Shown piece after piece: positions 314 through 32,279 of a stretch of 32,279 nucleotides of DNA; positions within the stretch are counted from its first letter, which is position 1; every line of letters begins with the position of its first letter. The stretch lies in contig CANRFR010000018.1 in the NCBI GenBank assembly GCA_947629945.1, positions 1 through 32,279 on the forward strand, read 5' to 3'. The stretch is from an uncultured Clostridia bacterium (GTDB lineage: Bacteria > Bacillota > Clostridia > Oscillospirales > Ruminococcaceae). The position numbers and the translations under genes are program-made. The notes below the pieces were generated by a model. That model was not told the DNA's origin and did not search any database. It saw only the letters and a list, made by a program, of their open reading frames with translations.

Positions 314-362
314 CTTACTTCGTTTTTAGAGTCAATATAGTACCTAAGGAAAGCGAGGTGTG

Positions 363-1926
363 ATGATGTTTAGTATAACCAAAATTGACGAATTTCAGCC
401 TGTCCAAAAGGAGAATAAAACCAGAGTTGCAGCATATTGCCGAGTATCTACGGACAGCGATGAACAGCAAACAAGTCTTGATACACAGCGTTCGCATCAC
501 GAAAGCTATATCAAGACAAATTCAGAGTGGGAGTTCGCGGGAGTTTATTTTGATGAAGGTGTAACAGAGACTAAAAAGGAAATCCGTAAAGGACTGATGA
601 CACTGATTTCCGATTGTAAAAAAGGAAAGATAGATTTGATTTTAACCAAGTCCATCAGCAGATTTTGTCGCAATATAACCGATTGTCTTGAACTTGTTCG
701 ACTGTTGCTTGACATCAATGTTTACATATTTTTTGAAAAAGAAAATCTGAATACGGGTTCTATGGAAAGTGAACTCATGCTTTCGATTTTCGGAACTCTT
801 GCAGAGAACGAATCAGTGTCGATTTCGGGAAACGAGAAATGGAGTATTCAAAACCGATTTAAGAACGGTACTTACATTATCGCTTACCCGCCCTACGGAT
901 ATACCACAGTTGACAGAGAAATGGTAATTGTGCCTGAACAAGCGGAGGTCGTCAGACAGATTTTTGCGGAGTGCCTAAACGGTAAAAGTGCAGGGGGTTA
1001 TAGCCAAAGAACTGAACGAGCAAGGCATTGTTGCGAAAAAGGGCGGCAAGTGGACATCAACCTCTGTTCTTGCAATTATACGAAACGAAAAATATACGGG
1101 TGACGCTTTGTTTCAGAAAACCTATACCGACAGCAGCTTTAACCGCCACAAAAATAACGGCGAATATAATCAATACCTTTGTGCGGAACATCACGAACCT
1201 ATAATAAGTCACGAGGTTTACGAAAAAGCAAATGAACTTGTAAACAGACGCGGTAAAGAAAAAGGCAACGGTGAGAATACGCAAAAGTATCTGAACCGCT
1301 ATGAGTTTTCGGGAAAAATCAAGTGCGGAGAGTGCGGAAGTTCCTTTAAGCGCAGAACACATAAAACTCCGGGCGGAGATTATACTGCTTGGTGCTGCAG
1401 CCGGCATATTGAGGACAAAAATGCCTGTGGTATGAAATTTATCACCGATGACGATGTTAAAACGGCTTTTGTTACAATGATAAACAAGCTGATATTTTCA
1501 CAGCAAGTCCTTTTGAAACCTTTGCTTAAAAATGTGGAATCACTTAGTCACGAGGGAATATCCGAAGAACTTAAAGCAGTTGAAATAGAAATCTGTCAGC
1601 TTAACGAAAGAAAACAGGTTCTTGCAAATTTAGGTGTCAGCGGATTGTTAGAGCCGCCGATTTTGCAAAAGGAAAACAATGCCATTATAGCCGAAAGCGA
1701 GAAATTGCAAACCAAAAAGAACAGCCTTTTATCCGCCGCAAGCGTAGATAATGAAAAGATAGAGGCTCTGAAATATCTTATAAGGTTTGTGCAAAGCGGT
1801 ACAATGCTGACGGATTACGATAAAGACCTCTTTGAAAAAGTTGTAGAGAAAATCACGGTAATTTCACGGAAAGAGATTGAATTTAAATTGTTCTGCGGAT
1901 TAAACTTGAAAGAAAGGTTGAACTAA
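363..1926 (+). pseudogene. Large serine recombinase, frameshifted
   Basis: The N-terminal resolvase domain contains [11 protein letters not shown], with the likely nucleophile Ser29, and ISRFCRN (usually SRFARN). The C-terminal half carries the recombinase domain, a CxxC zinc ribbon (KCGECG, then WCC and NACG), and a coiled-coil tail. The two halves lie in different frames. They join at a five-G run (993-997), where removing one G restores the family-typical order KSAG-VIAKELNEQG. The translated N-terminal frame runs on to 1103 and the C-terminal frame is open from about 988. The usual DDGISG motif is replaced by DEGVTE. The start is one of two ATGs (363 or 366) behind a GAGGTG site. It is a pseudogene unless the extra G is a sequencing error. 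The family inserts and excises integrative elements through a serine-DNA intermediate. Confidence 0.85.
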
Positions 1927-6472: not shown

Positions 6473-8254
6473 ATGAATAAGCGACAACTGGCTGCCACAA
6501 TATGGAAATCGGCTAATGAAATGCGTTCCAAAATTGAAGCCAACGAGTACAAGGATTATATCTTAGGCTTTATTTTCTACAGGTATCTTTCCGAGAAGGA
6601 ACTGCACTTTTTCAAGAAACAGGGAATGTTAGCAAAGGACATAAAAGAAATGAACGAATCCGATGAGGAGTTTGTGAATTTCACGAAAGAGTCTATCGGC
6701 TTTTTTATCGCATATGAGAATCTATTCTCCACGTGGCTGGAAAGGGGTAGCGATTTTGATGTCTCTGATGTAAGAACGGCGTTGACTGTCTTTGACCGGC
6801 TCGTCAGCCCTTCTCATAAAAAAGTGTTTGAAAAGATTTTCAATACACTGCAAACTGGACTTTCTAAACTGGGAGAAACTGCGTCCACGCAGACAAAGTC
6901 CATTAACGAGCTTATCAAGCTGATTAGACGCATTCCTATGGATGGGCGGCAGGATTATGATGTCCTTGGGTTTATTTATGAGTATCTCATCAGTCAGTTC
7001 GCTGCCAATGCGGGCAAAAAAGCGGGCGAATTCTATACGCCACATGAGGTTTCGCTGCTCATGTCCGAGATTGTGGCAAATCATTTGAAGAACAGAAAGA
7101 AAATCCGTATATACGATCCCACATCCGGTTCCAGATCTCTATTAATAAATATGGGAACGGCAGCTGCCAAGTATATCAAAGGCGAAAACAAAATCAGCTA
7201 TTATGCGCAGGAACTGAAGGAGAACACCTACAACCTCATCAGAATGAACCTCGTGATGAGAGGTATCGATCCGGTCAATATTTATGTAAGAAACGGTGAT
7301 ACTTTGGAGGAAGACTGGCCATTTTTCGAGGAAGGTGATATTGAGCATTATCAGCTTGTCCGTGTAGACGCCGTGGTATCCAATCCCCCCTATTCACAGA
7401 AATGGAATCCGAAAAATAAGAAGCATGACGCTCGTTTTTCTGACTATGGCATAGCACCAAAGGGTAAGGCGGATTATGCGTTTCTGCTACATGATCTATA
7501 TCACTTGGAGAAGGATGGGATTATGACGATAGTCCTTCCTCATGGCGTTCTCTTCCGTGGAAATGAAGAATATACAATTCGGAAGAACCTGATAGAGAAA
7601 AATAACATTGATGCTATTATTGGGCTCCCTGGTAATATTTTTTTCGGCACATCTATTCAAACACTAATCATGGTGTTGAAGCGTGAAAGGACAGAGACGG
7701 ATGTCCTTATTATCGATGCATCGAAGGGATATGAAAAAGCCGGAAAGAGCAACAGACTGCGTTCTTCGGATATCAAGCGTATTGTAGACTGCATCCGTAC
7801 TCGTGCTGTTATCCCTGGATTTTCCGCACGAGTGGGCAAAGAAAAAATCAAGGAGAACGACTATAATCTAAATATTTCTCGTTATATTGACTCTTACGAA
7901 AAGCCGAAGCCTTGGGATTTACATTCCATTATGTTTGGCGGCATTCCGAATGCGGAGTTAGATTCCTTGAATGATTATTGGAAAGCGTTCCCAACACTCA
8001 AGGAGTATCTCTGCAAGTCGATTTCTGAAAGATACGTGGAAATGGTTTTCTCTGATATTGGGCAGGCAGTGAAGAATGAGATGTCTGTTATCAGCTACAA
8101 GGATAGCTTTGCTGCTGTTTTCGCAGATTTGCGGGAAAAACTTCGGGCGGTTCTTATAGAACAATATTCCACGATATCTGTACAAGCGGAGGAGGAAAGA
8201 GCCACTGAGGACATTTTTAAGAGGTTGGAATCTATTGCCGTGGCAGACGAATAA
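6473..8254 (+). CDS. hsdM: Orphan type I restriction-modification methylase subunit (HsdM)
   Basis: A 593-residue N6-adenine methyltransferase subunit. The N-terminal helical domain (about 1-150) is typical of HsdM, followed by GEFYTP (185-190). The SAM-binding motif I region is at 215-221, and catalytic motif IV NPPY is at 304-307 with SQKWNPK after it. HsdM normally methylates DNA in complex with the specificity subunit HsdS and restricts with HsdR. Neither HsdS nor HsdR is present nearby on either strand. Motif I reads DPTSGSR where DPxCGSG is usual, so two conserved positions are changed, including a Gly to Arg that may harm SAM binding. The start ATG follows GGAGGA by about 10 nt. It could be a decayed relic, or it could work with an HsdS encoded elsewhere. 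Confidence 0.92.
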   Translation: MNKRQLAATIWKSANEMRSKIEANEYKDYILGFIFYRYLSEKELHFFKKQGMLAKDIKEMNESDEEFVNFTKESIGFFIAYENLFSTWLERGSDFDVSDVRTALTVFDRLVSPSHKKVFEKIFNTLQTGLSKLGETASTQTKSINELIKLIRRIPMDGRQDYDVLGFIYEYLISQFAANAGKKAGEFYTPHEVSLLMSEIVANHLKNRKKIRIYDPTSGSRSLLINMGTAAAKYIKGENKISYYAQELKENTYNLIRMNLVMRGIDPVNIYVRNGDTLEEDWPFFEEGDIEHYQLVRVDAVVSNPPYSQKWNPKNKKHDARFSDYGIAPKGKADYAFLLHDLYHLEKDGIMTIVLPHGVLFRGNEEYTIRKNLIEKNNIDAIIGLPGNIFFGTSIQTLIMVLKRERTETDVLIIDASKGYEKAGKSNRLRSSDIKRIVDCIRTRAVIPGFSARVGKEKIKENDYNLNISRYIDSYEKPKPWDLHSIMFGGIPNAELDSLNDYWKAFPTLKEYLCKSISERYVEMVFSDIGQAVKNEMSVISYKDSFAAVFADLREKLRAVLIEQYSTISVQAEEERATEDIFKRLESIAVADE

Positions 8255-8496
8255 GATTTTCAGCATTATCGGTTTCCTTTCAAAAGTGGTAAGATTTGCA
8301 GTGTTTTGCGAAGTTACGGCGCGCCGCGCTATGTTGGAATGGGCGCTCGATTTTTACAGTTTCTCACGCAAATAGGCAAAACTCAGCAAGATGTGGCGGT
8401 CAAACGTAGTCAAAACGTAGTAGAAAATTGGGATTGCTTACTACTGCGGGATTTTCTCGTTGTTTTCCAAATAATGGAGGGTTTGCCAATAACAGA
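8255..8496. other. Intergenic region between convergent genes, nothing identified
   Basis: After the hsdM stop I see no gene with a ribosome site, no clear HsdS remnant and no strong terminator. A 66-codon frame (8306-8506) has no ribosome site and no recognisable product. The region separates the + strand hsdM from the convergent minus-strand genes. Confidence 0.4.
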
Positions 8497-9111
8497 TTAC
8501 TTTTGAGAATTTTCGTCCTCATCGTATGTCTGAGTAATAGTTCTATTTCTTAAAGTAACCTCAATCTTGGAGAGAATTTTAGCGGGATCCAAATCTTTGT
8601 GATCGTTTGACAGTTGAAGCTTTTCCGGCTTAATAAAAAATTGCGTTTTATCAGCAGCACCTTTATATCCAACGTACAAAACTATGATAGTATCGCCGTC
8701 ACGATCTTTTTTTACATCTACATTGATCCAGTAATCGGGATCGTCTTTGACTTTGCGTTTTATTTCTGGAGTATACCAATCATCTAGACGAATCAGTTTA
8801 GCATTTTTAAATATCTCACGATTCAGCGCCCTCAAACACTGTGACGTAAGTGAATGTATACTTATAATCTCAATTTGCTTTTGGCATCTAGGACAGTAGA
8901 GAGTAGTATCTTCCGAACGTTCTAATTCAATCTCCGGGTGCTTTGAACAGTGAAAATGAATTCCATCTTGATTACAATAATAATAGCGCAGTTCATCTGG
9001 TTCGTACCCATAGAAATTAGTGCAATCTCCGGGACTAGTATTTGGATTTCTATACAATGAGCATGTCCTAAATGAAATATCATCGTTTAGTCTATAAATT
9101 TTCTTGTCCAT
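8497..9111 (-). CDS. Hypothetical protein with zinc-binding Cys/His cluster
   Basis: This 204-residue protein starts MDKKIYRLNDD, with GGGAGGG 7 nt before the ATG at 9111; the upstream in-frame Met at 9150 lacks a site. Around residues 55-85 there is a Cys/His cluster (HFHCSKHPEIE then LYCPRCQ), consistent with a zinc ribbon. The C-terminal half is charged and ends in an acidic tail (YDEDENSQK). No enzyme motif or membrane segment was recognised. It lies 73 nt downstream of the GIY-YIG gene on the same strand and may be cotranscribed with it, suggesting a shared accessory or defence role. No function is assigned. Confidence 0.7.
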   Translation of the reverse strand: MDKKIYRLNDDISFRTCSLYRNPNTSPGDCTNFYGYEPDELRYYYCNQDGIHFHCSKHPEIELERSEDTTLYCPRCQKQIEIISIHSLTSQCLRALNREIFKNAKLIRLDDWYTPEIKRKVKDDPDYWINVDVKKDRDGDTIIVLYVGYKGAADKTQFFIKPEKLQLSNDHKDLDPAKILSKIEVTLRNRTITQTYDEDENSQK

Positions 9112-9184
9112 GATTTTGCCCTCCCAAGAACAATCATTTAATGTATGCAAATGTTTCTATAAAATAGTAAAGCTCTGAGACCTA

Positions 9185-10084
9185 CTATGAGATACCCTCG
9201 CTGTTTTCCAGATCGCGCAAAGTCCTGCCATCTAAGGTTTTCCATTCGATCCAACCGTTGGAGCTATTGCCAATGACAAAAGATGATGCCCCAGAGGGAG
9301 AACTGAAAAGAACATCCTCAAGCAAAACATTGTTCTCATCGACCTTGCGCTGCTTACGCCGCTCTAAATAGCCTTTTGAAAGATACTCCGCGTCCATTGG
9401 AGAAATTATACTCCCTTTTAGCACAACAAATCCATCGGAAGTCTGCTTGCCAATTGCTTTAACGGTGAAATTGATTTGCTTTATCGTTCGGGTAAGATAC
9501 AGCTTTTGCCCATCTCCGGCAGCGTTCTCATTAGTATCATCGGACGAATCCTCAACGACCGGAACGAATACCTTGTGTTCGAGCGTTCCCATTATAAGCT
9601 TGGCGTTTTCGATAAACTCCTCCAGCTCACTCTCCTTTTCCTCGGTGATATGTCCGGGAGAGGGATCGTTTCCGTTTTTGACCGAATAGCGATCGACTTC
9701 AAGCGCAAGATTACAGAAACGATTTTCAAGATAACTTATCTCGGTGGGTCCGAACGAATTGTTTGAAGTGGTGAAGACTACGGCTTCCGTCCAGTAATCC
9801 TTTTCGCGATTGCGTCTATGCTCATACAAGCGGTTTAAAATGCCCTCGCCGTTTTTCCGCACCCCGGCTTGCCCGATATACACGATCTCTTTTCCGGTCT
9901 CATCCGATTTGCCGAACAAGAAATAAACACCGCTCCATTTGAGATCTTCGCGCTCTTTACATTTATCCAGATCGGTTCTCGGTATCTTATACGCAACACC
10001 CGTCCAATTGGCTAAGGTGCATTTTATTCTGCCGTCTGCAACGCCGTCCATCAGGAACAAATTGATGCTTTTGCCTCGTGACAT
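9185..10084 (-). CDS. GIY-YIG nuclease-domain protein with C-terminal DUF4357
   Basis: About 299 residues. The GIY-YIG signature appears as GVYFLFG (52-58) and VYIGQAG (68-74), with downstream Arg-rich GILNRLYEHRR and a Glu in YLENRF (120), as expected for the metal-binding residue. The C-terminal segment (LFSSPSGASSFVIGNSSNGW) resembles DUF4357, a domain often fused to GIY-YIG or found in restriction-modification loci. The domain pair suggests a DNA nuclease, possibly a restriction or anti-invasion enzyme. The start is uncertain: Met at 10084 follows a weak GGGG, while the Met at 10099 has GGAAGA directly adjacent. AT-rich sequence with two ATTATA boxes (10125-10136) upstream may hold the promoter. 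It lies between hsdM and the integrase, so it may be element cargo or part of the local defence cluster. Confidence 0.8.
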   Translation of the reverse strand: MSRGKSINLFLMDGVADGRIKCTLANWTGVAYKIPRTDLDKCKEREDLKWSGVYFLFGKSDETGKEIVYIGQAGVRKNGEGILNRLYEHRRNREKDYWTEAVVFTTSNNSFGPTEISYLENRFCNLALEVDRYSVKNGNDPSPGHITEEKESELEEFIENAKLIMGTLEHKVFVPVVEDSSDDTNENAAGDGQKLYLTRTIKQINFTVKAIGKQTSDGFVVLKGSIISPMDAEYLSKGYLERRKQRKVDENNVLLEDVLFSSPSGASSFVIGNSSNGWIEWKTLDGRTLRDLENSEGIS

Positions 10085-10225: not shown

Positions 10226-11491
10226 TTAAACCGAGCGGAACAAATCTCTTGAGACGCTGCCGGTATCGCGGTCAAGCTCTTTACGAGCGGCTTCTATGTC
10301 ATTCAGTCGGCTGAGTTCATCGGCTGCGTCATCAAGCCCCAAATGCGTATAGGTGTTCAAGGTAACGCCGATGTCGCTGTGACCCATAAGATACTGGAGA
10401 GTTTTCGGGTTCATTCCCGCCTTAGTCATATTGCTGCAGTAGGTGTGGCGACAAACGTGCGGGGTTATGTTCGGCAGCTGAAGCTTATAAATTTCATTGT
10501 AACGCTTTACCATGTGATTGAACCTGTGTTCCCAATGCATTGCCACAAGCGGGTATCCGTCCTTGTCTGTGAACAAAAATCCCGTATAGCCGCCAACTAT
10601 CCGCTCCGCTTTTGGTGCCTTTCTGTCATCGATTATCGCTTGAAGGCAATATGCAACATCATCTGTGATGGGTATTTTCCTTGTACCTGCATTGGTTTTC
10701 GTGGATTCTATGATCAGCTTCATATCGCTTGTCCGTTGAAGCTGACGCTCGATGTTTACCACCTTGTTTTCTAGATCGATATCGGAGAGCGTCAACCCGC
10801 AGAACTCCGATATTCTCATTCCCGTGTGGAACAATATGTAAACGACTTCATAATACTTACAGTAATTGTTATCGTCGTGAACGAATTTCAAAAATCTCCG
10901 CATTTCGTCCTTGGTGATCGCTTGACGGGTAACGCTGTCATTGACGATAACAGTAGCCATCTCAAATCCGAACGGGTTCTTTCTGAGTACATCATCGTCA
11001 ACCGCCATCTGAAAAGCCGGACGGAGGACGCCGCGCACGGTTTTTATCGTGCTGTAACCCTTTCCGTCCTCTTGCAGCTTGATAAGGAACAGCTTCGCAT
11101 CGGATGTCTTGACCGTTCCTATCTTATTTGACGAAAACGGCTCCTTTGCGAGAAGATTTTTTACAAAGCCGTAATTGCTCTTGGTGCTGTACTTTACGCC
11201 CGTCTTAGTCGCCAGATAGCGTTCCACGAGTTCATAAACGGTCATATTTTTATTGGACGGGTCGCAGAGCGTGTCCAGATCGTAGCCTATCTGCTTCTCC
11301 ATTTCCCGAAGCGATTGGCAAGGCTTTTTCCCGCTCGGCAGCGGATCGGTAGGCTCTAACCGCCAGCTGTACACAAAATGCGGCTTTCCGTTGATGTGAT
11401 ACTTGAACTGATATTTTCCGTCTGCGCGGATAGATTCTCCGCGCCTTAAAAGCCGCCGTTTTGAATCCCGTCTTTGCGGATTTCTCGGCAT
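10226..11491 (-). CDS. int: Tn916-type tyrosine integrase
   Basis: A 421-residue integrase that aligns by eye with Tn916 Int over its length. The N-terminal arm-binding domain has GESIRADGKYQFKYHINGKP and FVYSWRLEPTDPLPSGK. The core catalytic residues are Arg226 (TGMRISE), Lys265 (STKTNAG), His345 and Arg348 (HVCRH), His371 (MGHSD) and Tyr381 (NTYTH). It inserts and excises the element through a Holliday-junction mechanism, with an excisionase controlling direction. The start ATG at 11491 follows GGAGGAG. It overlaps the preceding excisionase-like gene by 46 nt, and a terminator follows directly. In this position it sets the left end of the prophage-like element. Confidence 0.97.
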   Translation of the reverse strand: MPRNPQRRDSKRRLLRRGESIRADGKYQFKYHINGKPHFVYSWRLEPTDPLPSGKKPCQSLREMEKQIGYDLDTLCDPSNKNMTVYELVERYLATKTGVKYSTKSNYGFVKNLLAKEPFSSNKIGTVKTSDAKLFLIKLQEDGKGYSTIKTVRGVLRPAFQMAVDDDVLRKNPFGFEMATVIVNDSVTRQAITKDEMRRFLKFVHDDNNYCKYYEVVYILFHTGMRISEFCGLTLSDIDLENKVVNIERQLQRTSDMKLIIESTKTNAGTRKIPITDDVAYCLQAIIDDRKAPKAERIVGGYTGFLFTDKDGYPLVAMHWEHRFNHMVKRYNEIYKLQLPNITPHVCRHTYCSNMTKAGMNPKTLQYLMGHSDIGVTLNTYTHLGLDDAADELSRLNDIEAARKELDRDTGSVSRDLFRSV

Positions 11492-11700
11492 AACAACTCC
11501 TCCTTTGCTTTCGGTTCGCTTTCCAAAAAATGCTGAAATTCCTCGCGAAGTACCAAGACCCTGTTGTGATAAAACGCCAAAAAGCTGTAATGGTCGCCGC
11601 TTTTCAGGAAACGAGTGAATTTACGCGCGCTCAAGCCGAATAATTCAATTGCTTCACGAACGTTTAAGTAGGTTTTTTCGGATATTTTCGGCTTTATCAA
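11446..11700 (-). CDS. Small HTH protein, excisionase-like
   Basis: This 84-residue protein contains a MerR/excisionase-like helix-turn-helix: TYLNVREAIELFGLSARKF, then a wing with NRVLVLREEFQHFLE. It starts at a TTG (11700) whose last bases overlap the TGA stop of the preceding gene (TTGA), with AGAGAGGTG 7 nt upstream, and its end overlaps the integrase start. This tight coupling argues that the two are made together. It likely binds near the attachment site or regulates the integrase, as small Xis-type proteins do. It is the most divergent of three related small proteins in a row. Confidence 0.75.
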   Translation of the reverse strand: MIKPKISEKTYLNVREAIELFGLSARKFTRFLKSGDHYSFLAFYHNRVLVLREEFQHFLESEPKAKEELLCREIRKDGIQNGGF

Positions 11701-11906
11701 TCCTCATCACCTCTCTCCGTCAATGAATCAATATACTCCTCGAACCGCTTTCTGATGATAAGGTAACGGTTTCCGTTCATTATCGCGAAATGGTTATCGC
11801 TCTCGGCAAGTCTGCGAAGCCGTTTTTCTCCGATGTTGAAATAAGCCGCTGCCTCGTTTATCGACAGCAGATACTTTTCACTTATCGGAATATTCTTCTC
11901 TAACAT
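11697..11906 (-). CDS. Excisionase (Tn916 Xis-like)
   Basis: A 69-residue protein starting MLEKNIPISEKYLLSINEA at the ATG 11906, with GGAGGTGAGCATT upstream. The pattern AAAYFNIGEKRLRRLAES followed by MNGNRYLIIRKRFEEYI matches the winged-helix excisionases of Tn916-family elements. Such proteins bind the element ends and direct the tyrosine integrase toward excision. It shares most of its length with the next gene upstream (same EKYLLSI and FNIGEK cores), which suggests tandem duplication. It is coupled to the following small HTH gene by a TTGA overlap. Confidence 0.85.
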   Translation of the reverse strand: MLEKNIPISEKYLLSINEAAAYFNIGEKRLRRLAESDNHFAIMNGNRYLIIRKRFEEYIDSLTERGDED

Positions 11907-11985
11907 AATGCTCACCTCCGTTTTCCGATACCATATTAACTCTTTCAAACGGAAATAGCAACTACTTACGGCAAAGAAAAAGAAA

Positions 11986-12228
11986 CTAAATCGCCGAACT
12001 TTCCTCAATAAATTTCTCGAATTTTGTGCGAATTATGAGTACACGATTACCGTTATAAACAGAAAATCTTCTATCCGCCGAGCCGCCTTGATTGTCCTCG
12101 GCAAGTCGGCGTATCTTTTTCTCTCCGATATTGAAATACATCGCCGCTTCCTTTATAGAAAGCAGATACTTCTCGCCGATAGACAGAGAAGCCCTCTCGG
12201 TGCTGACCGATTCATTCTTTAGCAACAT
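11986..12228 (-). CDS. Second excisionase (Tn916 Xis-like) paralogue
   Basis: An 80-residue protein starting MLLKNESVSTERASLSIGEK at 12228, preceded by GGGAGGTGATA. The core EKYLLSIKEAAMYFNIGEKK and NGNRVLIIRTKFEKFIEE is a close copy of the neighbouring excisionase, with an inserted Gly-rich stretch (DNQGGSADRR) before the wing. The longer upstream open frame to 12390 crosses the late-operon terminator and is not used. Two Xis paralogues in one operon may recognise different arm sites, or one may be a spare copy. The gene is the first of the int/xis operon. Confidence 0.85.
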   Translation of the reverse strand: MLLKNESVSTERASLSIGEKYLLSIKEAAMYFNIGEKKIRRLAEDNQGGSADRRFSVYNGNRVLIIRTKFEKFIEESSAI

Positions 12229-12256
12229 TATCACCTCCCGGAAATGCGTTCCTATT

Positions 12257-12278
12257 ATTATAAGGACAGTTATTCTGT
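12257..12278 (-). promoter_or_regulatory. Candidate promoter and dyad operator before the excisionase operon
   Basis: A TATAAT hexamer on the minus strand (12257-12262) lies 28 nt before the excisionase start codon. It is adjacent to a perfect dyad ACAG-N5-CTGT (12266-12278) within the spacer. The -35 is poor (CCCAAT), which would fit an activated or repressed promoter. Inference from sequence only. Confidence 0.4.
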
Positions 12279-12357
12279 AATTGGGGACTAAATCCTCACT
12301 CAGTCGCCCTATAATGTTTTTCAATAATCTATCTGGACAAAAATGAGTAAATTGGGC

Positions 12358-12396
12358 GAAAAAAATCAGCCCGTGAGAATAATTTCCCACGGGCTG
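12358..12396 (-). terminator. Strong terminator of the phage late operon
   Basis: CAGCCCGTG (12367-12375) pairs with CACGGGCTG (12388-12396). On the minus strand the hairpin is followed by ATTTTTTT. It lies a few bases past the endolysin stop and separates lysis genes from the int/xis operon. Confidence 0.9.
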
Positions 12397-19773: not shown

Positions 19774-20715
19774 TTAGTTATAAAATGCATTCGATTGATT
19801 TATTGGTGTCTTATTCACCAAAAGGTTTGAACTATTAACAATGCTTTCAAATTGTTGCCTTAAACAATATACGCATCTATTCTTATCATTCAAACGAAAC
19901 AAGGGATTAGTACACTGCCTGCAAATAAAACCCGCCGAGTTTTCCCCATAAAACTTTTGCAGTATTAAGAAATATGAGTTTGTATATATGTACAGATTGG
20001 CTATCAGCAATTCCCGTAAAATTGATTCTTTTGATTCTGTATAACCTAAATATGAATTTGTAGTCGAAAAAACAGCAGTTACAGGAGTTAAATATACATT
20101 TGGATGAGCATATTTATTACATTTGTCGGAAATTTTCAATAAATCTATTTCAGTAGGAAACCAATCATTTTTTACCAAATGATAATCTTTCGCACATCCC
20201 TTTACATCGTTGGTAGCAATCTTATGCTTAATATGCACAGTAAAATAATTATTGTTATTTTTTCCAAGGAAATACTTATAAATGCCGTTATACTCATTAA
20301 CGCCTTTATACTTACCATCCTTAGAACAAAATGCTAAAACATCTTCATACCTTTGATCTCTACAAAGATTATATAAATCCAAAAAAGCTTCAATACTATG
20401 GCGAGTAAGAATATGAATAACAGGAAAGCCCAAAACATCTTGTGATGAAACATCAAAATTATGAAGAGACATCCAATTGGTATAAAAATTTTGTTGAACA
20501 TAGTAAAACAAAAAGTATTCTTTTGATGCCGCGATATTGTAAATGTTATTAATCAAATAATTAACAGAAGTTTGAATGTAACTAAAAATATTAATTGGTT
20601 TATAGGGTCTGATTTTACAATTGTGTTCAGCAAGTTCGACAAAACTTTCTCCAATAACCGCATAATTGCCAAACAGCACTAAAAATGTAAAAGTCAAGAC
20701 CGCTTTCGCGTTCAT
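19774..20715 (-). CDS. AT-rich moron protein with C-terminal zinc finger
   Basis: Up to 313 residues, lying between the tail chaperone and the tape measure. The C-terminus carries CxxC-x12-CxxC (Cys265, Cys268, Cys281, Cys284: FICRQC then CVYC). The N-terminus (residues 6-22) reads as a hydrophobic stretch, VLTFTFLVLFGNYAVIG. The base composition is much more AT-rich than the flanking tail genes and it has its own consensus promoter and terminator, so it is an inserted moron rather than a tail gene. The apparent ATG sits in the loop of a large fold-back repeat and has no ribosome site, so the true start or even integrity is uncertain. It may be a decayed or altered gene. Function unknown. Confidence 0.65.
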   Translation of the reverse strand: MNAKAVLTFTFLVLFGNYAVIGESFVELAEHNCKIRPYKPINIFSYIQTSVNYLINNIYNIAASKEYFLFYYVQQNFYTNWMSLHNFDVSSQDVLGFPVIHILTRHSIEAFLDLYNLCRDQRYEDVLAFCSKDGKYKGVNEYNGIYKYFLGKNNNNYFTVHIKHKIATNDVKGCAKDYHLVKNDWFPTEIDLLKISDKCNKYAHPNVYLTPVTAVFSTTNSYLGYTESKESILRELLIANLYIYTNSYFLILQKFYGENSAGFICRQCTNPLFRLNDKNRCVYCLRQQFESIVNSSNLLVNKTPINQSNAFYN

Positions 20716-20771
20716 TTTAGTCTTGACTTTTACATTTTTAGTGCTAAAATGACAATGCGGTTATTGGAGAA
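20647..20771. repeat. Long fold-back inverted repeat over the moron start
   Basis: A perfect 26-nt arm pair (20675-20700 with 20720-20745) surrounds a 19-nt loop. An outer 17-nt pair (20647-20663 with 20755-20771) has a few unpaired bases between. One arm is coding sequence of the moron; the other is its inverted copy. The loop contains CGC-GAAA-GCG and the ATG used by the longest open frame. Confidence 0.9.
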
Positions 20772-20849
20772 ATTTGTCAGTCGGTGGCATTTACACAGTT
20801 CAAAATTAAGACTCGGTTTATATAAATCATCATTAACAACAACACCCAT
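20730..20849 (-). CDS. Small ORF upstream of the moron, possibly its displaced N-terminus
   Basis: A 39-residue frame starts at ATG 20849, with GAGAGGTG about 10 nt upstream, and begins MGVVVNDDLYKPSLNFEL. It ends with a TAA in the right arm of the inverted repeat (20730-20732). It lies just after the promoter at 20904-20932 and has the only good ribosome site in the unit. It is not in the same frame as the 19774-20715 gene. One reading is that it was originally the first exon-like part of that gene before the fold-back insertion broke the frame; the other is that it is a leader peptide. Confidence 0.4.
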   Translation of the reverse strand: MGVVVNDDLYKPSLNFELCKCHRLTNFSNNRIVILALKM

Positions 20850-26840: not shown

Positions 26841-27890
26841 TCATTCGTTCCTTACATATCGTGTATTCCTTGATGCACCGATACGCTTGATTTGACCCGC
26901 CTTTACCATCTTACCCAGAACAGATTCCACTGTTGTCGGGCTGATATCCGGGTGAATGGCACAGATCTCCGCTTTGGATATGGGCGTCAAGCTGCCAAGT
27001 ACAGTTGCTTCGATGCGGGCGGTCTTTGTGACTTTCTTGCCATGCACGATTGCAAACCGTTTGTCCAGTTCCTTATAGCACATATACAGGGTAGTGAGGA
27101 AATTCTGTATAAATGGGAAGTAGTCGTTCTCGTTGGTGTTCCAGCCGGCCGAAGACTGTTGCAGCGCCTCATAATAATATGCCTTGCAGTTATTGATCTG
27201 CTCCTCAAAAGAAATGTACTTACCGGCATCAAAACCGTTTTTGTAAAGAAGCAGGAGCGACAGAAGCCGCGACATTCTGCCGTTGCCGTCCCCGAACGGG
27301 TGGATGCAGAGGAAATCCAAGATCACGCAGGGGATCAGCAGAAGCTGATTGATGTTTGCGTTGGAGCAAGCGTCCGCATAGGCAAGCTCCAACTGTTCCA
27401 TAGCAGCCTTTGTCTCGGCTGCGGGGGTCGGACGGAAGCGAACACTTCGAGTGCCGTCCGGTGCGACCTCTAAGATCACATTGTCTGTATTCTTGTATTG
27501 TCCGGCATATTCATACCCGGCAACAGACATCATCATCTCATGCAGCCGTAGAATATCCCGTTCATTGAAAGACAGATGCTCATATCCGGTATGAATGATA
27601 TTCAGAGCATCACGGTATCCGGCGATCTCCGCCTCGTTGTGATTCAGCGGTGCGCTGCTCCGGTTCACGATTTCCGCAATACGCCGATCGCTGGTGACGA
27701 TACCCTCGATAGCATTGGAGCTTTTGACCGACTGTACCTTTGCCACAGCTTCCAATTCGGTGAAAACCTGCGCATATTCTTCCTTCCGAACGCCTGCAGC
27801 GGTGCGCAATGAATAGATGCTCCCGGTTATACCGATAAGGTTTGCAGGGAGCAAACCGTTATCCAAAAATGAATAATCAAACTTTCTCAC
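26841..27890 (-). CDS. Fic-family AMP transferase with built-in inhibitory motif
   Basis: About 349 residues. The Fic motif HPFGDGNGR is at about 187-195, with the catalytic His first. The N-terminal helix carries SNAIEG (about 58-63), which fits the (S/T)xxxE(G/N) inhibitory motif of class II Fic proteins. A winged helix lies at the C-terminus (SKAEICAIHPDISPTTVESV and the wing). Such proteins AMPylate a target, often a topoisomerase or elongation factor in related toxins, and are held off by the Glu of the inhibitory motif. I chose GTG at 27890 because GGAGGG is 6 nt upstream and the upstream in-frame ATG lies before the promoter's -10. It is an inserted moron between portal and terminase genes; the target is unknown. 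Confidence 0.92.
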   Translation of the reverse strand: MRKFDYSFLDNGLLPANLIGITGSIYSLRTAAGVRKEEYAQVFTELEAVAKVQSVKSSNAIEGIVTSDRRIAEIVNRSSAPLNHNEAEIAGYRDALNIIHTGYEHLSFNERDILRLHEMMMSVAGYEYAGQYKNTDNVILEVAPDGTRSVRFRPTPAAETKAAMEQLELAYADACSNANINQLLLIPCVILDFLCIHPFGDGNGRMSRLLSLLLLYKNGFDAGKYISFEEQINNCKAYYYEALQQSSAGWNTNENDYFPFIQNFLTTLYMCYKELDKRFAIVHGKKVTKTARIEATVLGSLTPISKAEICAIHPDISPTTVESVLGKMVKAGQIKRIGASRNTRYVRNE

Positions 27891-27914
27891 AATATCCCTC
27901 CGTTTCTGCATATC

Positions 27915-27943
27915 ATTATACCTCTTTATATGCAAAAAGTCAA
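27915..27943 (-). promoter_or_regulatory. Near-consensus promoter for the Fic gene
   Basis: On the minus strand TTGACT (27938-27943), a 17-nt spacer and TATAAT (27915-27920). The start of transcription would fall between the -10 and the GTG at 27890, which rules out the upstream ATG at 27935. Confidence 0.9.
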
Positions 27944-28019
27944 GTGGATAAGGGAATTTTCTGAATATATTTTGCTATATTATATGCAGAAATGGAGTTT
28001 TTTATGCATAAAATCACAG

Positions 28020-28043
28020 AAAGAGCCGATTGCTCGACTCTTT
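28020..28043 (-). terminator. Hairpin between the 70-aa gene and the Fic promoter
   Basis: AAAGAGTCGA-GCAA-TCGGCTCTTT on the minus strand forms a 10-bp stem with one G-T pair, followed by a weak T tract (TTTCTGTGATTTT). Probably a terminator of the terminase transcript. Confidence 0.6.
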
Positions 28044-28068
28044 CAAGGTGTGTTCTCGCCGCTTTTGT

Positions 28069-28281
28069 TTAGCGTACCTCGCTGACTTTGATATCGAAGT
28101 ATGCAATGTGATGCTCTCTTGCGTAGGCGCATAACCATTCGTCAGCCTCTACAAAATCTTCAAAGGTCCTAAGCGTTACCCAATCCGTGCGACCGGGCGT
28201 GTATGTTCTGATCCCGTTCTCAACCGTGGTCTTGCCCTTGCCTAAAACCCTTAAAACCTTCGCTGCCCATAATCTTTTCAT
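28069..28281 (-). CDS. Small hypothetical protein (70 aa) under a conserved leader
   Basis: A 70-residue basic protein beginning MKRLWAAKVLRVLGKGKTTV and ending FDIKVSEVR. It has the aromatic segment DWVTLRTFEDFVEADEWLCAYAREHH and no recognised domain. Its ATG follows GGAGGAAAAAGAA and the structured leader at 28304-28350. It sits between the terminase and the Fic moron, on the same strand. The leader suggests common control with the terminase and amidoligase operons. Function unknown. Confidence 0.6.
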   Translation of the reverse strand: MKRLWAAKVLRVLGKGKTTVENGIRTYTPGRTDWVTLRTFEDFVEADEWLCAYAREHHIAYFDIKVSEVR

Positions 28282-28303
28282 TTCTTTTTCCTCCGTGTTT
28301 TTG

Positions 28304-28361
28304 TTTTCCGTAGGGCTTGTCCCTTTCGGTAGTTACATATTAACTCTAAAGCCGCATTATA
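28304..28361 (-). promoter_or_regulatory. Conserved structured leader, copy 1, with -10 box
   Basis: The 47-nt core (28304-28350) nearly matches two other leaders in the window. It starts TTTAGAGTTAATATGTAACT on the minus strand and continues ACCGAAAGGG, then CCCTACGGAAAA. CCG pairs with CGG and GGG with CCC around a short loop. A TATAAT (28356-28361) lies just upstream of the core. Upstream of it lies the end of the terminase gene; its own gene is the 70-residue ORF. Confidence 0.75.
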
Positions 28362-28433
28362 TCAAGCTTTATTTGAGAATAATGTACACAAATATTCGGA
28401 GGAAAAATAGTGTATTTTATGGCTTGTTTTCTC

Positions 28434-30035
28434 TCATATAAAAAGCAAACCCCGCTCATCGTAAACGCTCTCGCCCGTGTCATTCCCGCACCGAATAGCC
28501 CTGTCCAGAGCCATTATCGTGGCGATCGCGCCGTCAATTTTCTCGGTGGACTTTTCCTTGTCCGCCTTAATGTTCCCGGCGGGGTCGGTGCGAATGAAAA
28601 TGTTATCCATATTCCACCGCAGAACGGGATTGCCGCCGTGAGCTATCTTCTGCTCCAAGGTCAGTTTCATCAACTCTTTTGTCGGCGGGCTCATATCCTT
28701 GAAACCCTGTCCAAACGGCACGACCGTAAAGCCCATGTTTTCAAGGTTCTGCACCATTTGAACGGCTCCCCAACGGTCGAAAGCTATCTCACGAATGTTG
28801 AACCGTTCACCAAGACGCTCGATGAACTTTTCGATAAAGCCGTAATGCACTACATTTCCCTCGGTGGTCTGAATAAACCCTTGACGCTCCCACACATCGT
28901 AGGGAACATGGTCGCGGTTCACTCTCAAAGCAAGTGTTTCTTCGGGGAGCCAGAAATACGGCAAAATCTGAAATCTGTCTTCTTCATCTTTCGGCGGGAA
29001 AACAAGCACGAAAGCGGTCAAGTCGGAGGTAGACGAAAGGTCAAGCCCGCCGTAGCAGACCCGACCTTCAAGTTCATCTTCATTTACGGGAAACGCACAA
29101 GCGTCCCATTTCTCCATCGGCATCCACCGCACCGCTTGCTTTACCCATTGATTAAGCCTTAACTGCCGGAAAGAGTTCTCCTCTCCCGGATTCTGCCGTG
29201 CGGAATCGCAAGCCGCCTGAACTTTGTCAATGCCGATAGTTTCACCGAGCGATGGATTTGCTTTCTTCCAGACCTTCGGTGAAGTCCAATCCTCACATTC
29301 ATCTGCGCCGTAAATAACAGGGTAGAAGGTGCTGTCGATCTTTCTGCCCTCAAGAATATCCTTTGCCTTTTGATGAGTTTCATAGCAGATACTGTTAGTA
29401 TCTGTTCCGGCTGTCGTGATAAGAAAATACAGCGGCTGCATACGAGCATCACCGCTGCCTTTGGTCATAACATCAAACAATTTTCGGTTAGGCTGAGTGT
29501 GCAGCTCATCGAAAACAACACCGTGTATATTAAAGCCGTGCTTGCTATACGCTTCGGCCGAAAGCACTTGATAAAACGAGTTTGTCGGCGTATAAATAAT
29601 ACGCTTGGTAGCAGTGAGTATCTTCACCCGCTTATTCAAAGCCGGACACATTCGCACCATATCCGCTGCCACATCGAAAACGATAGCCGCTTGCTGCCGA
29701 TCTGCGGCACAGCCGTAGACCTCGGCGCGTTCTTCGCCGTCGCCGCAAGTAAGCAAAAGAGCGACCGCCGCAGCGAGTTCGCTCTTTCCGTTCTTCTTGG
29801 GTATCTCGATGTATGCCGTGTTGAACTGCCGATAACCGTTCGGTTTTAAAATGCCGAAAAGGTCGCGGATTATCTGCTCTTGCCAATCGATAAGCTCGAA
29901 CGGCTTTCCCGCCCATGTGCCTTTGGTGTGGCACAGGCTCTCGATAAAAGCTACGGCGAAGTCCGCCGAGTCCTTATCGTAGCGGCTGTCCTTTGCTTTG
30001 AACTTGGTCGGCTTGTACTTTTTCAGTTTTCGCAA
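28434..30035 (-). CDS. terL: Large terminase subunit (HK97 gp2/Terminase_1-like)
   Basis: About 533 residues from a TTG at 30035 (start MRKLKKYKPTKFKAKDSRYD), preferred because AGAGGTGAG lies just upstream; an earlier in-frame start at 30134 has no site and would overlap another gene. Walker A is IPKKNGKSELA (about 79-85), Walker B VVFDELH (about 173-179), and the RNase H-like nuclease acidic motif GGLDLSSTSD (about 330-338). It packages DNA through the portal by ATP hydrolysis and cuts the concatemer. No small terminase gene is visible between it and the window edge. It follows a 47-residue ORF and leader copy 2. Confidence 0.96.
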   Translation of the reverse strand: MRKLKKYKPTKFKAKDSRYDKDSADFAVAFIESLCHTKGTWAGKPFELIDWQEQIIRDLFGILKPNGYRQFNTAYIEIPKKNGKSELAAAVALLLTCGDGEERAEVYGCAADRQQAAIVFDVAADMVRMCPALNKRVKILTATKRIIYTPTNSFYQVLSAEAYSKHGFNIHGVVFDELHTQPNRKLFDVMTKGSGDARMQPLYFLITTAGTDTNSICYETHQKAKDILEGRKIDSTFYPVIYGADECEDWTSPKVWKKANPSLGETIGIDKVQAACDSARQNPGEENSFRQLRLNQWVKQAVRWMPMEKWDACAFPVNEDELEGRVCYGGLDLSSTSDLTAFVLVFPPKDEEDRFQILPYFWLPEETLALRVNRDHVPYDVWERQGFIQTTEGNVVHYGFIEKFIERLGERFNIREIAFDRWGAVQMVQNLENMGFTVVPFGQGFKDMSPPTKELMKLTLEQKIAHGGNPVLRWNMDNIFIRTDPAGNIKADKEKSTEKIDGAIATIMALDRAIRCGNDTGESVYDERGLLFI

Positions 30036-30063
30036 ATTCTCACCTCTTAAAACTTTGGGATCA

Positions 30064-30207
30064 TCAATTGACCGCCGCGATCGCACTGTTTTGGCATTCG
30101 AGAATCGCCGCTGCCATTTCAGCAGTAAGCTCACCGCTTTTGGTTTTCTCCTCGATGAGTGCCCTTGTTGCGTCCAGAATGTTCTGTATCTTTTCTTCTC
30201 TTGTCAT
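30064..30207 (-). CDS. Small helical ORF upstream of the large terminase
   Basis: A 47-residue protein, MTREEKIQNILDATRALIEE, ending ECQNSAIAAVN, with GGAGGAAAGCACA before the ATG. It is too short for the usual frame listing but has a good ribosome site and follows leader copy 2 directly. Helical and charged, it occupies the position where a small terminase subunit would be expected, but it shows no DNA-binding HTH and is too short to be one. Function unknown. Confidence 0.6.
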   Translation of the reverse strand: MTREEKIQNILDATRALIEEKTKSGELTAEMAAAILECQNSAIAAVN

Positions 30208-30229
30208 TGTGCTTTCCTCCGTGCTTTCG

Positions 30230-30277
30230 TTTTCCGTAGGTCGTTGTCCTTTCGGTAGTTACATATTAACTCTAAAA
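30230..30277 (-). promoter_or_regulatory. Conserved structured leader, copy 2
   Basis: This copy matches copy 1 along nearly its whole length, including TTAGAGTTAATATGTAACTA and the CCG/CGG stem. The inner stem is AGG with CCT in place of GGG with CCC, and a -10-like TTTTAT lies just upstream. It precedes the 47-residue ORF and the terminase. Confidence 0.75.
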
Positions 30278-30291
30278 GCACATAAAAGCAA

Positions 30292-30326
30292 GCGGTTTTC
30301 GCACAATAATCTGCACGAAAAACCGC
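30292..30326 (-). terminator. Hairpin after the zinc-ribbon gene
   Basis: GCGGTTTTTCGTGCA pairs with TGCGAAAACCGC on the minus strand, with an internal mismatch, followed by TTGCTTTT. It lies about 18 nt after the stop of the small zinc-ribbon gene and probably ends the amidoligase/cyclotransferase transcript. Confidence 0.6.
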
Positions 30327-30343
30327 TGTTGTATCTGTATATC

Positions 30344-30541
30344 TTATGCCTGATAAGTGCGATGTATCGTTTCCATGATAAGCTCCTGTTCTTCTGGCTT
30401 GATACCGATGCTTTCAAGAGCCTCACGAGTGCCGCAGTCCGGGCAGATCGGGGAACTGTCCACTCTCGACAGTGCAGGAATACCGCGATAGGATTTTCCG
30501 CACTTTGGGCAAATCCTTATGCGTTCAGTGTTTTCTTTCAT
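30344..30541 (-). CDS. Small zinc-ribbon protein
   Basis: A 65-residue protein, MKENTERIRICPKCGKSYRG then ICPDCGTREALESIGI. Two CPxCG knuckles form a zinc ribbon. The C-terminal helix (EEQELIMETIHRTYQ) is plain. It overlaps the end of the cyclotransferase-like gene by 17 nt, so it is translated with it. It may bind nucleic acid or a protein partner; no specific function is known. Confidence 0.75.
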   Translation of the reverse strand: MKENTERIRICPKCGKSYRGIPALSRVDSSPICPDCGTREALESIGIKPEEQELIMETIHRTYQA

Positions 30542-31001
30542 TAAGCACCCTCCTTACTCTTTCCACCGCACGTTTCAGAAAACGCTTGTCGAACCCGAAA
30601 TCCTTGTAGCCTTGCAAGCACGTTTCAAGGTAGAACTCGCTCGGCAATCCGAGCCTACTATCCTCGTTCATGAAGTAGTAAAAAGCCTTTTTCCTTGCCG
30701 GTCTGCCGCCGTTTAAAGGGGTCACGTCAAGCGTTACCTCGGCTTTCGAGTAGAACCTCGGAAAGCCCTCGTAGCGGTCGAGTGCGGCTTCGTCAGAGGC
30801 TGTGACCTCCCATACACCAACAGGAACCTTGCCGCCGATTTTCGGATCGACCGAAAGGTAGTACCCGCTCCCCGAACCGCGAAAGGTCAGTGTATTGTTT
30901 TGGAGAACCGCTGTGCCTACCGCCTTTGCCGTAGGGCAGCGGTACTTCATTTGCTCCAAATTCAAGTTGCTGCCGTAAGCCAAATAATAACGTTTTGCCA
31001 T
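30525..31001 (-). CDS. Gamma-glutamylcyclotransferase-like (AIG2/GGCT) protein
   Basis: A 158-residue protein. YYLAYGSNLNLEQMKYRCP is the family's substrate-binding YGSNL motif, and YEGFPRFY holds the Glu that is catalytic in relatives, after DEAALDR. The beta-barrel pattern and length agree with GGCT. Relatives split gamma-glutamyl amides to give 5-oxoproline, or trim peptide-linked amides. The start at 31001 has GAAAGGATT upstream. It sits next to an amidoligase-like gene, a pairing described for peptide- or wall-modifying systems in mobile elements by Iyer, Aravind and co-workers (recalled, not checked). It may reverse or remodel the amidoligase's product. Confidence 0.88.
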   Translation of the reverse strand: MAKRYYLAYGSNLNLEQMKYRCPTAKAVGTAVLQNNTLTFRGSGSGYYLSVDPKIGGKVPVGVWEVTASDEAALDRYEGFPRFYSKAEVTLDVTPLNGGRPARKKAFYYFMNEDSRLGLPSEFYLETCLQGYKDFGFDKRFLKRAVERVRRVLNERKH

Positions 31002-31047
31002 TTGAAATCAATCCTTTCAAAAGGGCTTGTATCGCCGTGAAAAGCAC

Positions 31048-31104
31048 CCTTCTACCACCTAAAGACCTCCGTAGAGGTCGGTGGAAGGTATAAGGCTACC
31101 TTCC
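31048..31104 (-). promoter_or_regulatory. Mutually exclusive hairpins upstream of the cyclotransferase
   Basis: CCTTC (31048-31052) pairs with GAAGG (31084-31088), with CCACC/GGTGG and GACCTC-CGTA-GAGGTC inside. GGAAGGTA (31083-31090) can instead pair with TACCTTCC (31097-31104). Both use the same GAAGG, so only one can form at a time. This looks like an attenuator or RNA switch in the gene junction; inference. Confidence 0.5.
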
Positions 31105-31113
31105 TTGAGCCCT

Positions 31114-32087
31114 TCAAGCGGCTCTGCCATTGCGAAATGCGGTATCTCCATCAAGCCGCTTGGTGAGGATTTCTCTCGCTGTTGCGAACTCCTCGCCGAT
31201 AAAGCCGAGCCTTAAAAGCCAAGTCCTCATAGCGTACTTGGGGTTTTCGGTCTGCTGGGGCTTAGGGCTTGCGGTCTTGACTTCCTTTGCCATTTCGGAA
31301 AGCGCCAAGCAAAGCTGAATGTAGCTTTTAAGCTGTCCTGCGTGAAGTCCATTCTGCTTGCCGTTGCTCGGAGCGTCGAATTGGAAAAGTCTGAACTCGA
31401 CTGTGCCTTTCGTAAAGGTCGCGTGGAGGTTTAGCAATATGCGCATTATGCGCTTCGCACAAAACGCTAGCGGCTGTCGTTGTAGTGGGCGTCCCGACCG
31501 TAGTTAGCGTTCTGAGTGCCGTACCAAATGTCCGCAAGCTGTGCCATTGTTGTGGGCTTTTGCTTGTTGAGGTTCGCTAAGAAGCTGGGGTTTACCATTT
31601 TGCAGTAGCGGTTCATTCGGCGGCTGTCGAGGTTAAGCGCGCTTGCGAGGAGTTGCTCGTGGCTTGCCATAATGTTTGCCAAGTTCCTCAAAGTCTGCGG
31701 CGTATGCCCTTTCGCACCGATGTGAATGTGTACCCCGCAGCCCCTTGTCGCATCGCTCTTGGCTCCTGCCCTGCGAAGTCTGCGTATCAGTTCTTGCAAG
31801 ATTTCGATGTCTGCGTAGGTGAGGATCTGGGTCACAAGCTCGCACTTTTCGCTGTCGGGTCCCGCTATGCTTACGTCCTTTTGGAATTTCCACTCGCGCC
31901 CCTCGCCGTCCCAAGCGGAGTAGGTTTCGTAGCCGTTTCTACCGCCTGTGTATTCAACTCGGCTCGTTCCGAAGAAGTCTGCCGCTACTTTAGCTGCCGC
32001 TTTTCGTGTAATGCTGTTCATTTCAACCTCGACCCCTATGGTCTGTTTCTTCATTTCGGTGATTTGCTTGGTGGTTTTCTCGCTCAT
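31114..32087 (-). pseudogene. Amidoligase-family enzyme, split by a frameshift
   Basis: The N-terminal part (about residues 1-206, start at 32087 with GGAGGACATTACA before the ATG) has IGVEVEMNSITRKAAAKVAA and CGVHIHIGAKGHTPQTLRNL, typical of amidoligase (COOH-NH2 ligase, glutamine-synthetase-like) enzymes. It stops at a TAG (31467-31469). The C-terminal portion continues in another frame with LLNLHATFTKGTVEFRLFQF and LHAGQLKSYIQLCLAL. A 35-nt stretch with the palindrome GCGCATTATGCGC (31441-31453) separates the Arg codon and the Leu-Asn-Leu-His motif. A -1 shift across it would also restore the frame. It is either a broken gene or a frameshifted one; the broken reading is more likely. It lies after leader copy 3. 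Confidence 0.75.
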
Positions 32088-32109
32088 TGTAATGTCCTCC
32101 GTTTTGTGT

Positions 32110-32157
32110 TTTTCCGTGGGGCTGTTCCCTTTCGGTAACTGTATATTAACTCTAAAA
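32110..32157 (-). promoter_or_regulatory. Conserved structured leader, copy 3
   Basis: The core has TTTAGAGTTAATATACAGTT on the minus strand and the same CCG/CGG outer stem, with GGG and CCC inside. The sequence differs from copies 1 and 2 at several positions, mostly outside the stems. It precedes the amidoligase gene. Confidence 0.75.
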
Positions 32158-32223
32158 CGGATAAATAGCAAGCGGTTTAGCAACAATATATCTCACAAAA
32201 AATAGGTCCAACCCCTAAAGTAG

Positions 32224-32252
32224 TGGAAATTATCAAAAAAGTATGGTATAAT
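32224..32252 (+). promoter_or_regulatory. Promoter of a divergent gene at the right edge
   Basis: TGGAAA (32224-32229), a 17-nt spacer and TATAAT (32247-32252) on the + strand, followed by AAGGAG (32260-32265). Confidence 0.65.
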
Positions 32253-32274
32253 ATCCGGGAAGGAGTTGGTGAAA

Positions 32275-32279
32275 ATGAT
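32275..32279 (+). CDS. Start of a truncated gene at the right edge
   Basis: The ATG at 32275 lies 9 nt after AAGGAG and behind the promoter at 32224-32252. Only the first bases are in the window. It is divergent from the amidoligase operon, so it could be a regulator such as a repressor, but nothing of its product can be read. A GTG at 32269 is an alternative start. Confidence 0.5.

Follow-up and report, generated by a model that had tools for sequence, protein, structure and literature searches.

Why does nearly the same short sequence stand before three different operons of one stretch of bacterial DNA? The stretch, called the window here, is the whole 32,279 nt analysed (positions 1 to 32,279 of contig CANRFR010000018.1, assembly GCA_947629945.1), from an uncultured Clostridia bacterium of the Ruminococcaceae. 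A first examination of the letters alone (the sequence-only reading) had noticed a conserved, foldable leader of 47 nt in three copies, before a small open reading frame (ORF), a terminase operon and an amidoligase gene, and had proposed for it a selected RNA structure, a protein-binding operator or a shared promoter unit. Our answer, to which we give a probability of about 0.7, is that the copies belong to a family of phage promoters, which the host sigmaA would read and whose members would form one regulon, switched together by a phage regulator.

The three copies lie where they had been reported, all on the minus strand; the RNA is the reverse complement of the letters written in that first examination. 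Each sits immediately 5′ of a GGAGG and an ORF start, namely those of a 70-aa ORF, of a 47-aa ORF followed by the large terminase, and of the amidoligase. The -10 boxes that had been claimed are there as well, each with a -35 box at 17 bp. Read in the sense of transcription, a copy runs from its -35 (TTGATA, TTGCTT and TTGCTA in copies 1, 2 and 3) over 17 bp to TAATAT and to a probable start at the A in ACCGAAAGG, followed by a leader of ~50 nt, GGAGG and ATG. The features are listed below, with two further copies of the element; bit scores come from a weight matrix whose training set included all five copies, and are not independent.

28337..28350, minus strand: core of copy 1, TTTAGAGTTAATAT (-20 to -7), 66.8 bits; -35 TTGATA at 28360-28365, probable +1 at 28330
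28384..28391, minus strand: upstream box of copy 1, TTGTGTAC, which begins at -61; in copies 2 and 3 the box is present in diverged forms only
28308..28329, minus strand: leader hairpin of copy 1, predicted RNA, -8.1 kcal/mol
28069..28281, minus strand: 70-aa ORF downstream of copy 1, without a Pfam match
30263..30276, minus strand: core of copy 2, TTTAGAGTTAATAT, 63.8 bits; -35 TTGCTT at 30286-30291, probable +1 at 30256
30234..30255, minus strand: position of the proposed hairpin in copy 2, where an inner pair is lost and the minimum-energy fold is another
30064..30207, minus strand: 47-aa ORF downstream of copy 2, without a Pfam match
28434..30134, minus strand: large terminase, 3′ of copy 2
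32143..32156, minus strand: core of copy 3, TTTAGAGTTAATAT, 60.3 bits; -35 TTGCTA at 32166-32171, probable +1 at 32136
32114..32135, minus strand: leader hairpin of copy 3, predicted RNA, -7.2 kcal/mol
31467..32087, minus strand: amidoligase gene downstream of copy 3 (PF12224)
325..338, plus strand: fourth, weaker copy, TTTAGAGTCAATAT, 27.7 bits; -35 TTGACT at 310-315, probable +1 at 345; precedes a serine recombinase ORF at 360
11933..11946, minus strand: fifth, diverged copy, GAAAGAGTTAATAT, 21.3 bits; -35 TTGCTA at 11956-11961, probable +1 at 11926; precedes a Tn916-type excisionase ORF

A repeat finder run on the window placed copies 1-3 at the top of its ranking, as the longest direct-repeat family (119 nt, with identities to the reference copy of 68% and 71% for the other two). 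The DNA conserved in the family consists of a -35 of the form TTG[AC]T, 17 bp, TTTAGAGT-TAATAT and the probable start ACCGAAAGG. By sequence, copies 1-3 have the attributes of a sigmaA-type promoter (a TTG -35, a T-A-n-n-n-T -10 and ~17 bp), and from these we infer a working promoter at each copy, its start site, its use of sigmaA and a common control of the units. The weight matrix, like the arm-swap test described below, was based on 82 of 142 distinct motif copies (80% identity cut), and the fold survey on 95 (90% cut). It gives copies 1-3 60-67 bits, whereas 3 Mb of base-shuffled phage DNA yield not one site at 12 bits or above, so the family stands far above chance. Shuffling kept only the base composition for the matrix, copies per phage, exact cores, amidoligase leaders and upstream box; for the fold survey and the folds of the window copies it kept dinucleotides.

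Were the unit a structured RNA acting in cis, like an antiterminator or riboswitch leader, its homologues should have compensatory base-pair changes. Copies 1 and 3 do fold, at -8.1 and -7.2 kcal/mol, and some other leaders bear hairpins at the equivalent place, often of different sequence. The inner pairs had been said to change together between copies; this is an artefact of register, the third inner pair of copy 2 being changed on both sides, but into an A-A mismatch. Among the eight leaders that bear the stem, three of the seven pairs are invariant and not one is changed on both sides. Copy 2 has a minimum-energy fold other than this hairpin, and the fold z-scores of copies 1, 2 and 3 are -2.88, -0.54 and -1.60. 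The closing (3′) arm of the hairpin, ACGG, is present in two of 44 distinct amidoligase leaders and missing by eye in most relatives, and conserved bases reach upstream of the start. Rfam yielded no family at gathering level in the window; the three weak snoRNA-model matches within 27900-32279 have E >4 and are at chance level. An RNA structure with covariation was rejected on the two grounds of no both-side change and a mostly missing 3′ arm, and a cis-acting structured RNA in general is very improbable. Compensatory change is thus absent, and conservation is not confined to the promoter hexamers: the spacer by the -10 (TTTAGAGT) and the first ~9 transcribed bases are conserved too, so an element read by a protein is suspected. 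Among the three proposals it is the shared promoter unit that the data favour, possibly with a protein-binding operator, and not the selected RNA structure.

Hairpins of any form at -5 kcal/mol or below occur in nine of the 44 distinct amidoligase leaders, against 3.4% of base-shuffled leaders (three of the 75 loci in this survey lacked a start anchor). Of the leaders in the survey of 95 non-redundant copies, 35 reach -3 kcal/mol or below and 25 are unfolded, leaders without a clear ribosome-binding site having been cut by rule and some of those of 15 nt being uninformative. Because the stem has no both-side change and the fold is present in a minority of amidoligase leaders, the hairpins are an optional addition and the promoter is the conserved unit. 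Where present, a 5′ hairpin may perhaps protect the mRNA 5′ end, a tentative idea that complements the promoter reading and does not compete with it. The excess over shuffled leaders speaks for it, as does the gene beginning MWHEGTIGV..., before which a hairpin is kept in three loci (L019, L020 and L016) with differing inner stems, the folds being compared by eye; the 35 distinct amidoligase leaders that have no such hairpin speak against it.

The family extends well beyond the window. A pattern with 22 fixed bases matched 30 IMG/VR stretches and 25 stretches of GTDB genomes, the latter labelled Ruminococcus (10), Clostridia/Eubacteriales/Oscillospiraceae (11), Syntrophomonas (2), Anaeromassilibacillus (1) and, for one metagenome-assembled genome, Alistipes. 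With up to one mismatch allowed, each of the 22 genomes behind the GTDB matches has between 1 and 10 sites, against one reversed-control match in all; in 14 of these genomes all sites are on one strand, contig orientations being arbitrary. A looser pattern was found in four of 100 genomes and two of 394, the source genome being counted in each, and its reversed control in none of either set. Contigs C12 and C112 of the source genome hold additional copies. Single copies used as DNA queries gave weak matches only (best E 0.2 in phages and 2 in plasmids), the top phage matches being gut-phage records.

A sample independent of the motif came from an amidoligase-protein search, in which 80 of 349 viral loci were kept and 75 examined, the other five having too little upstream DNA. 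The matrix scores 54 of the 75 at 16 bits or more; 17 more share the architecture by eye, with other spacer/-10 bases, and four (L182, L187, L188 and L194) have only the distant form CTATGGCATTATG. Many of these loci are near-duplicates, and counting distinct 48-mers gives 29 of 44 at 16 bits or more. When the 12 loci on motif-matched contigs are set aside, the same threshold is reached in 42 of 63 loci and 25 of 40 distinct 48-mers. The core variants in amidoligase loci are TTTAGAGTTAATAT, TTCAGAGGTAATAT, TTTAGAGCGAATAT, TTTAGAGTGATATAT, TAGTACGGGAATAT and AAAGACGGTAATAT.

A single phage tends to repeat one main variant, with seven matches each in G461 and G477 and eight in G503 (one of them within a large ORF); shuffled-sequence means for copies per phage are 0-2.6, and many phages hold only 1-3 copies. 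Exact core matches in 38 partly overlapping sequences number 130 against 3.15 expected by shuffling, an excess that is partly by construction, the cores having been drawn from these phages. The spacer/-10 forms that we name are AGAG-TTAATAT, AGAG-CGAATAT, TACGG-GAATAT and GACG-GTAATAT. A bolder reading, which we consider rather improbable, would make of them a Heliusvirales-wide system in which a dedicated phage factor reads the interchangeable spacer/-10 together with the fixed, initially transcribed ACCGAAAGG, as a Q-like or activator-loading promoter with many copies per genome; each tiny accessory gene would then have its own promoter copy, as against one before the late operon.

Under the promoter reading, most likely, host RNA polymerase with sigmaA would read the TTG of the -35 and the TAATAT of the -10 and start at the A of ACCGAAAGG, while a phage-encoded regulator would read AGAG (-17 to -14) and a TTGTGTA box (at about -62 or -52). 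On prophage induction or infection, a single regulon would thus be switched, made up of the accessory-gene block, the terminase/structural operon and the recombinase. Positions -17 to -14 are normally free of fixed bases in sigmaA promoters; since AGAG occupies them here, a second reader of the unit besides sigmaA is likely. The distance from the upstream box, TTGTGTA[CG], to the AGAG 3′ of it is 44-46 nt in 12 cases and 33-35 nt in six. These two spacings differ by one helical turn (~10 bp), suggestive of a protein that sits on one helix face; 19 of 114 box matches are near a core, near-identical phages being counted separately. The box is about one helical turn nearer the promoter in L049 (at 3028), L064 (at 1384), L229 and L191, and these nearer-box copies precede the first gene of the block or, in some loci, the amidoligase.

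The leading candidate for the regulator, though an association test did not favour it, is a DUF1492/phrog_36 protein, sigma-region-4-like and resembling the late activators RinA, ArpU and Ltr in size and place. Three phages were tested, and in each such a protein is encoded just 5′ of the HNH and small terminase genes (with Pfam hits in two phages and phrog_36 hits in all three); the phrog_36 profile matches 28 of 32 long contigs, 23 of them from profile position 92 or earlier.

Several observations count against the promoter-regulon reading. The IMG/VR and GTDB stretches were picked by their core, whose conservation there is by construction. Some variants have G for T at -12 and some have ATTCCAAT for TTG at -35, which strains a plain sigmaA reading. 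A single tight specificity is likewise strained by the several phages that carry more than one variant, with a different one, for instance, at the integrase or at the block's first gene. Overall, TTGTGTA[CG] barely exceeds its shuffled count (114 matches against 90). As to the regulator, five of the 28 phrog_36 matches (G472, G506, G507, G522 and G524) are short C-terminal ones within a larger ORF; G503, G509, G510 and G513 are the long contigs with no match, some contigs being fragments; and the window contig ends before the expected position of the gene. Of 14 control genomes, 12 have a match to the profile too, so that a match says little about function. The association test, from which near-identical phage pairs were left out, gave phrog_36 a partial r of 0.15 against a best of 0.37 among the 32 families present in at least 10 phages, the top families being DUF2815-like (0.37) and TerL-like (0.30), both named by eye. 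Of the families carried by 70% or more of a variant type's phages, none is exclusive to types A, B, C or E, and exclusive ones occur only in A2, D and F (2-3 phages each).

As association did not single out phrog_36 and type-exclusive families were seen for small types only, no regulator is claimed. A strict heteroimmunity code of variants was weakened by the mixing of variants inside a phage.

The second reader could instead be an immunity repressor. The unit would then be an operator, bound over the spacer/-10 at each copy, with the regulon off in the lysogen and active only transiently after infection or induction. We hold this to be unlikely, though it has several points on its side: invariant bases overlap the -10 box, and the element precedes both integrase genes as well as the block that leads to the structural genes. 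In phage P1 (C1 operators), L5 (stoperators) and SPbeta (SPBRE), a short sequence is repeated over the phage genome, often at promoters, and the operators of P1 and L5 are asymmetric as well as multi-copy. The present copies resemble these in being short and repeated phage-wide, often at promoters; they differ in being promoter-like themselves, with a mostly fixed start-region sequence, and in that no repressor was identified among the families tested by type. No consistent dyad symmetry was seen by eye, and the mixing of variants in single phages fits a repressor poorly, as does the lack of families exclusive to types A, B, C or E. A repressor-controlled establishment regulon is nonetheless on record for plasmid p576 (PMC8708921).

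Another class of repeated promoter is active on single-stranded DNA. Frpo/ssi promoters stand in several copies before genes of one mobile element (PMC11541004), and in that respect, as in an apparent inverted repeat, the present unit is like them. In a promoter of this kind the upstream box would pair with an arm at the -10/+1, and in many copies an imperfect inverted repeat does join the box and the start region by eye. The complementarity of the arms is 18.7, against 16.4 for shuffled upstream arms; yet arms swapped between copies still reach 18.3, and 648 of 5000 permutations attain the observed value. Because swapping loses almost nothing, the arms do not co-vary, which separates the unit from Frpo/ssi, as does its presence in tailed phages with double-stranded DNA. 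The single-stranded promoter or cruciform was rejected on the arm-swap test, the complementarity being a property of the family and not of copy-by-copy covariation, and we rate this explanation the least probable of all, close to negligible.

The carriers are prophages related to Candidatus Heliusviridae. Five were mapped at greater length (R. flavefaciens ND2009, contig C12 of the source genome, Syntrophomonas, G486:C3 and the window), and all five are tailed prophages with double-stranded DNA, on which ground the leading region of a conjugative element was rejected; L046, L047, L052, L073 and L091 are short fragments. All five have copies ahead of small genes, with the large terminase following, and in four a further copy precedes a serine recombinase, none being seen within the 32 kb of G486:C3 shown. 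In ND2009 and Syntrophomonas, replication-type genes, HNH, small terminase and methyltransferase-type genes come first; small genes that have copies of their own form the next block; and large terminase, portal, protease, capsid, tail, lysis and serine recombinases come last, the recombinases behind one more copy. The window agrees with this plan, its fourth copy being the one at the recombinase.

Candidatus Heliusviridae share nine genes: large terminase, portal, Clp protease, major capsid, DUF2800, DUF2815, DNA polymerase I, VRR nuclease and SNF2 helicase (PMC9226167). The window holds four of them (TerL, portal, Clp protease and major head protein), its contig stopping short of the replication genes. 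The other five families are all present in L159, a carrier from the same genus, where PF10991 is taken by us to be DUF2815. Two amidoligase-bearing phage records are labelled Candidatus Heliusvirales. In the source genome, DUF2800-like genes lie on three contigs (C3, C22 and C82) and amidoligase blocks on C12, C18 and C112, which suggests at least three related prophages split over contigs.

Other features of the window were noted in passing. The serine recombinase at 360-1926 (plus strand) is read in two overlapping frames, of 247 aa (resolvase domain) and 312 aa (recombinase and zinc-ribbon domains), so that the gene looks frameshifted in the assembly. A Tn916-type tyrosine integrase and Tn916-Xis-like small ORFs (11697-11906 and 11986-12228 were tested) at 10226-12390 (minus strand), beside a phage lysin gene, form a probable second integration module. 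Among the phage tail genes, a 313-aa ORF at 19774-20775 (minus strand), without a Pfam or PADLOC match, adjoins two inverted repeats, of 26 nt (perfect; 20675-20700 / 20720-20745) and of 21 nt (95%), and has the look of an inserted cargo gene. Between the large terminase and the portal, 26841-27890 (minus strand) encodes a Fic-domain protein (PADLOC SoFic-like), and a type I DNA methyltransferase lies near a PDC-S14 candidate defence protein with DUF4357 within 6473-10060.

We regard the element as a regulon-like promoter family that is itself new, its general kind being known. The strings TTTAGAGTTAATAT and AGAGTTAATATG were not found in the open-access papers searched, closed-access papers being outside the search, and among the five of these papers with the string TAGAGTTAATAT none is, by its title, about promoters of such phages. 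The word 'promoter' does not occur in the main text of the paper naming Candidatus Heliusviridae, nor in the accessible text of a Faecalibacterium phage paper. One close parallel is with the late promoters of Ltr, RinA and ArpU. Ltr proteins bind about four direct repeats 5′ of one promoter in Gram-positive phages (PMC13123087); there, as here, a promoter stands before the packaging and structural genes, and the DUF1492/phrog_36 proteins share the place and size of these activators, whereas the present family has several promoters to a phage, with a single short upstream box and a spacer that is conserved. Tandem direct repeats 5′ of the -35 were not seen by eye, only the one box, no repeat finder having been run on the relatives' regions. 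In arrangement, the family is also comparable with the conjugative Bacillus plasmids p576 and pLS20, where one conserved upstream sequence precedes several operons of a mobile element; EGeRS2 of the p576 establishment regulon contains a strong promoter, and EGeRS1 of pLS20 is 400-750 bp long and without a constitutive sigmaA promoter (PMC8708921).

If the promoter-regulon reading is true, the regulon of these gut phages, a widespread group and for the most part uncultured, has a single short DNA element as its mark, and the genes for amidoligase, gamma-glutamylcyclotransferase, DUF4314, DUF7678 and DUF7698 proteins, terminase and recombinase would be switched together. The element would give a handle for finding the phage master regulator and for predicting when the accessory genes are on, and gene control in this widespread group would become directly testable.

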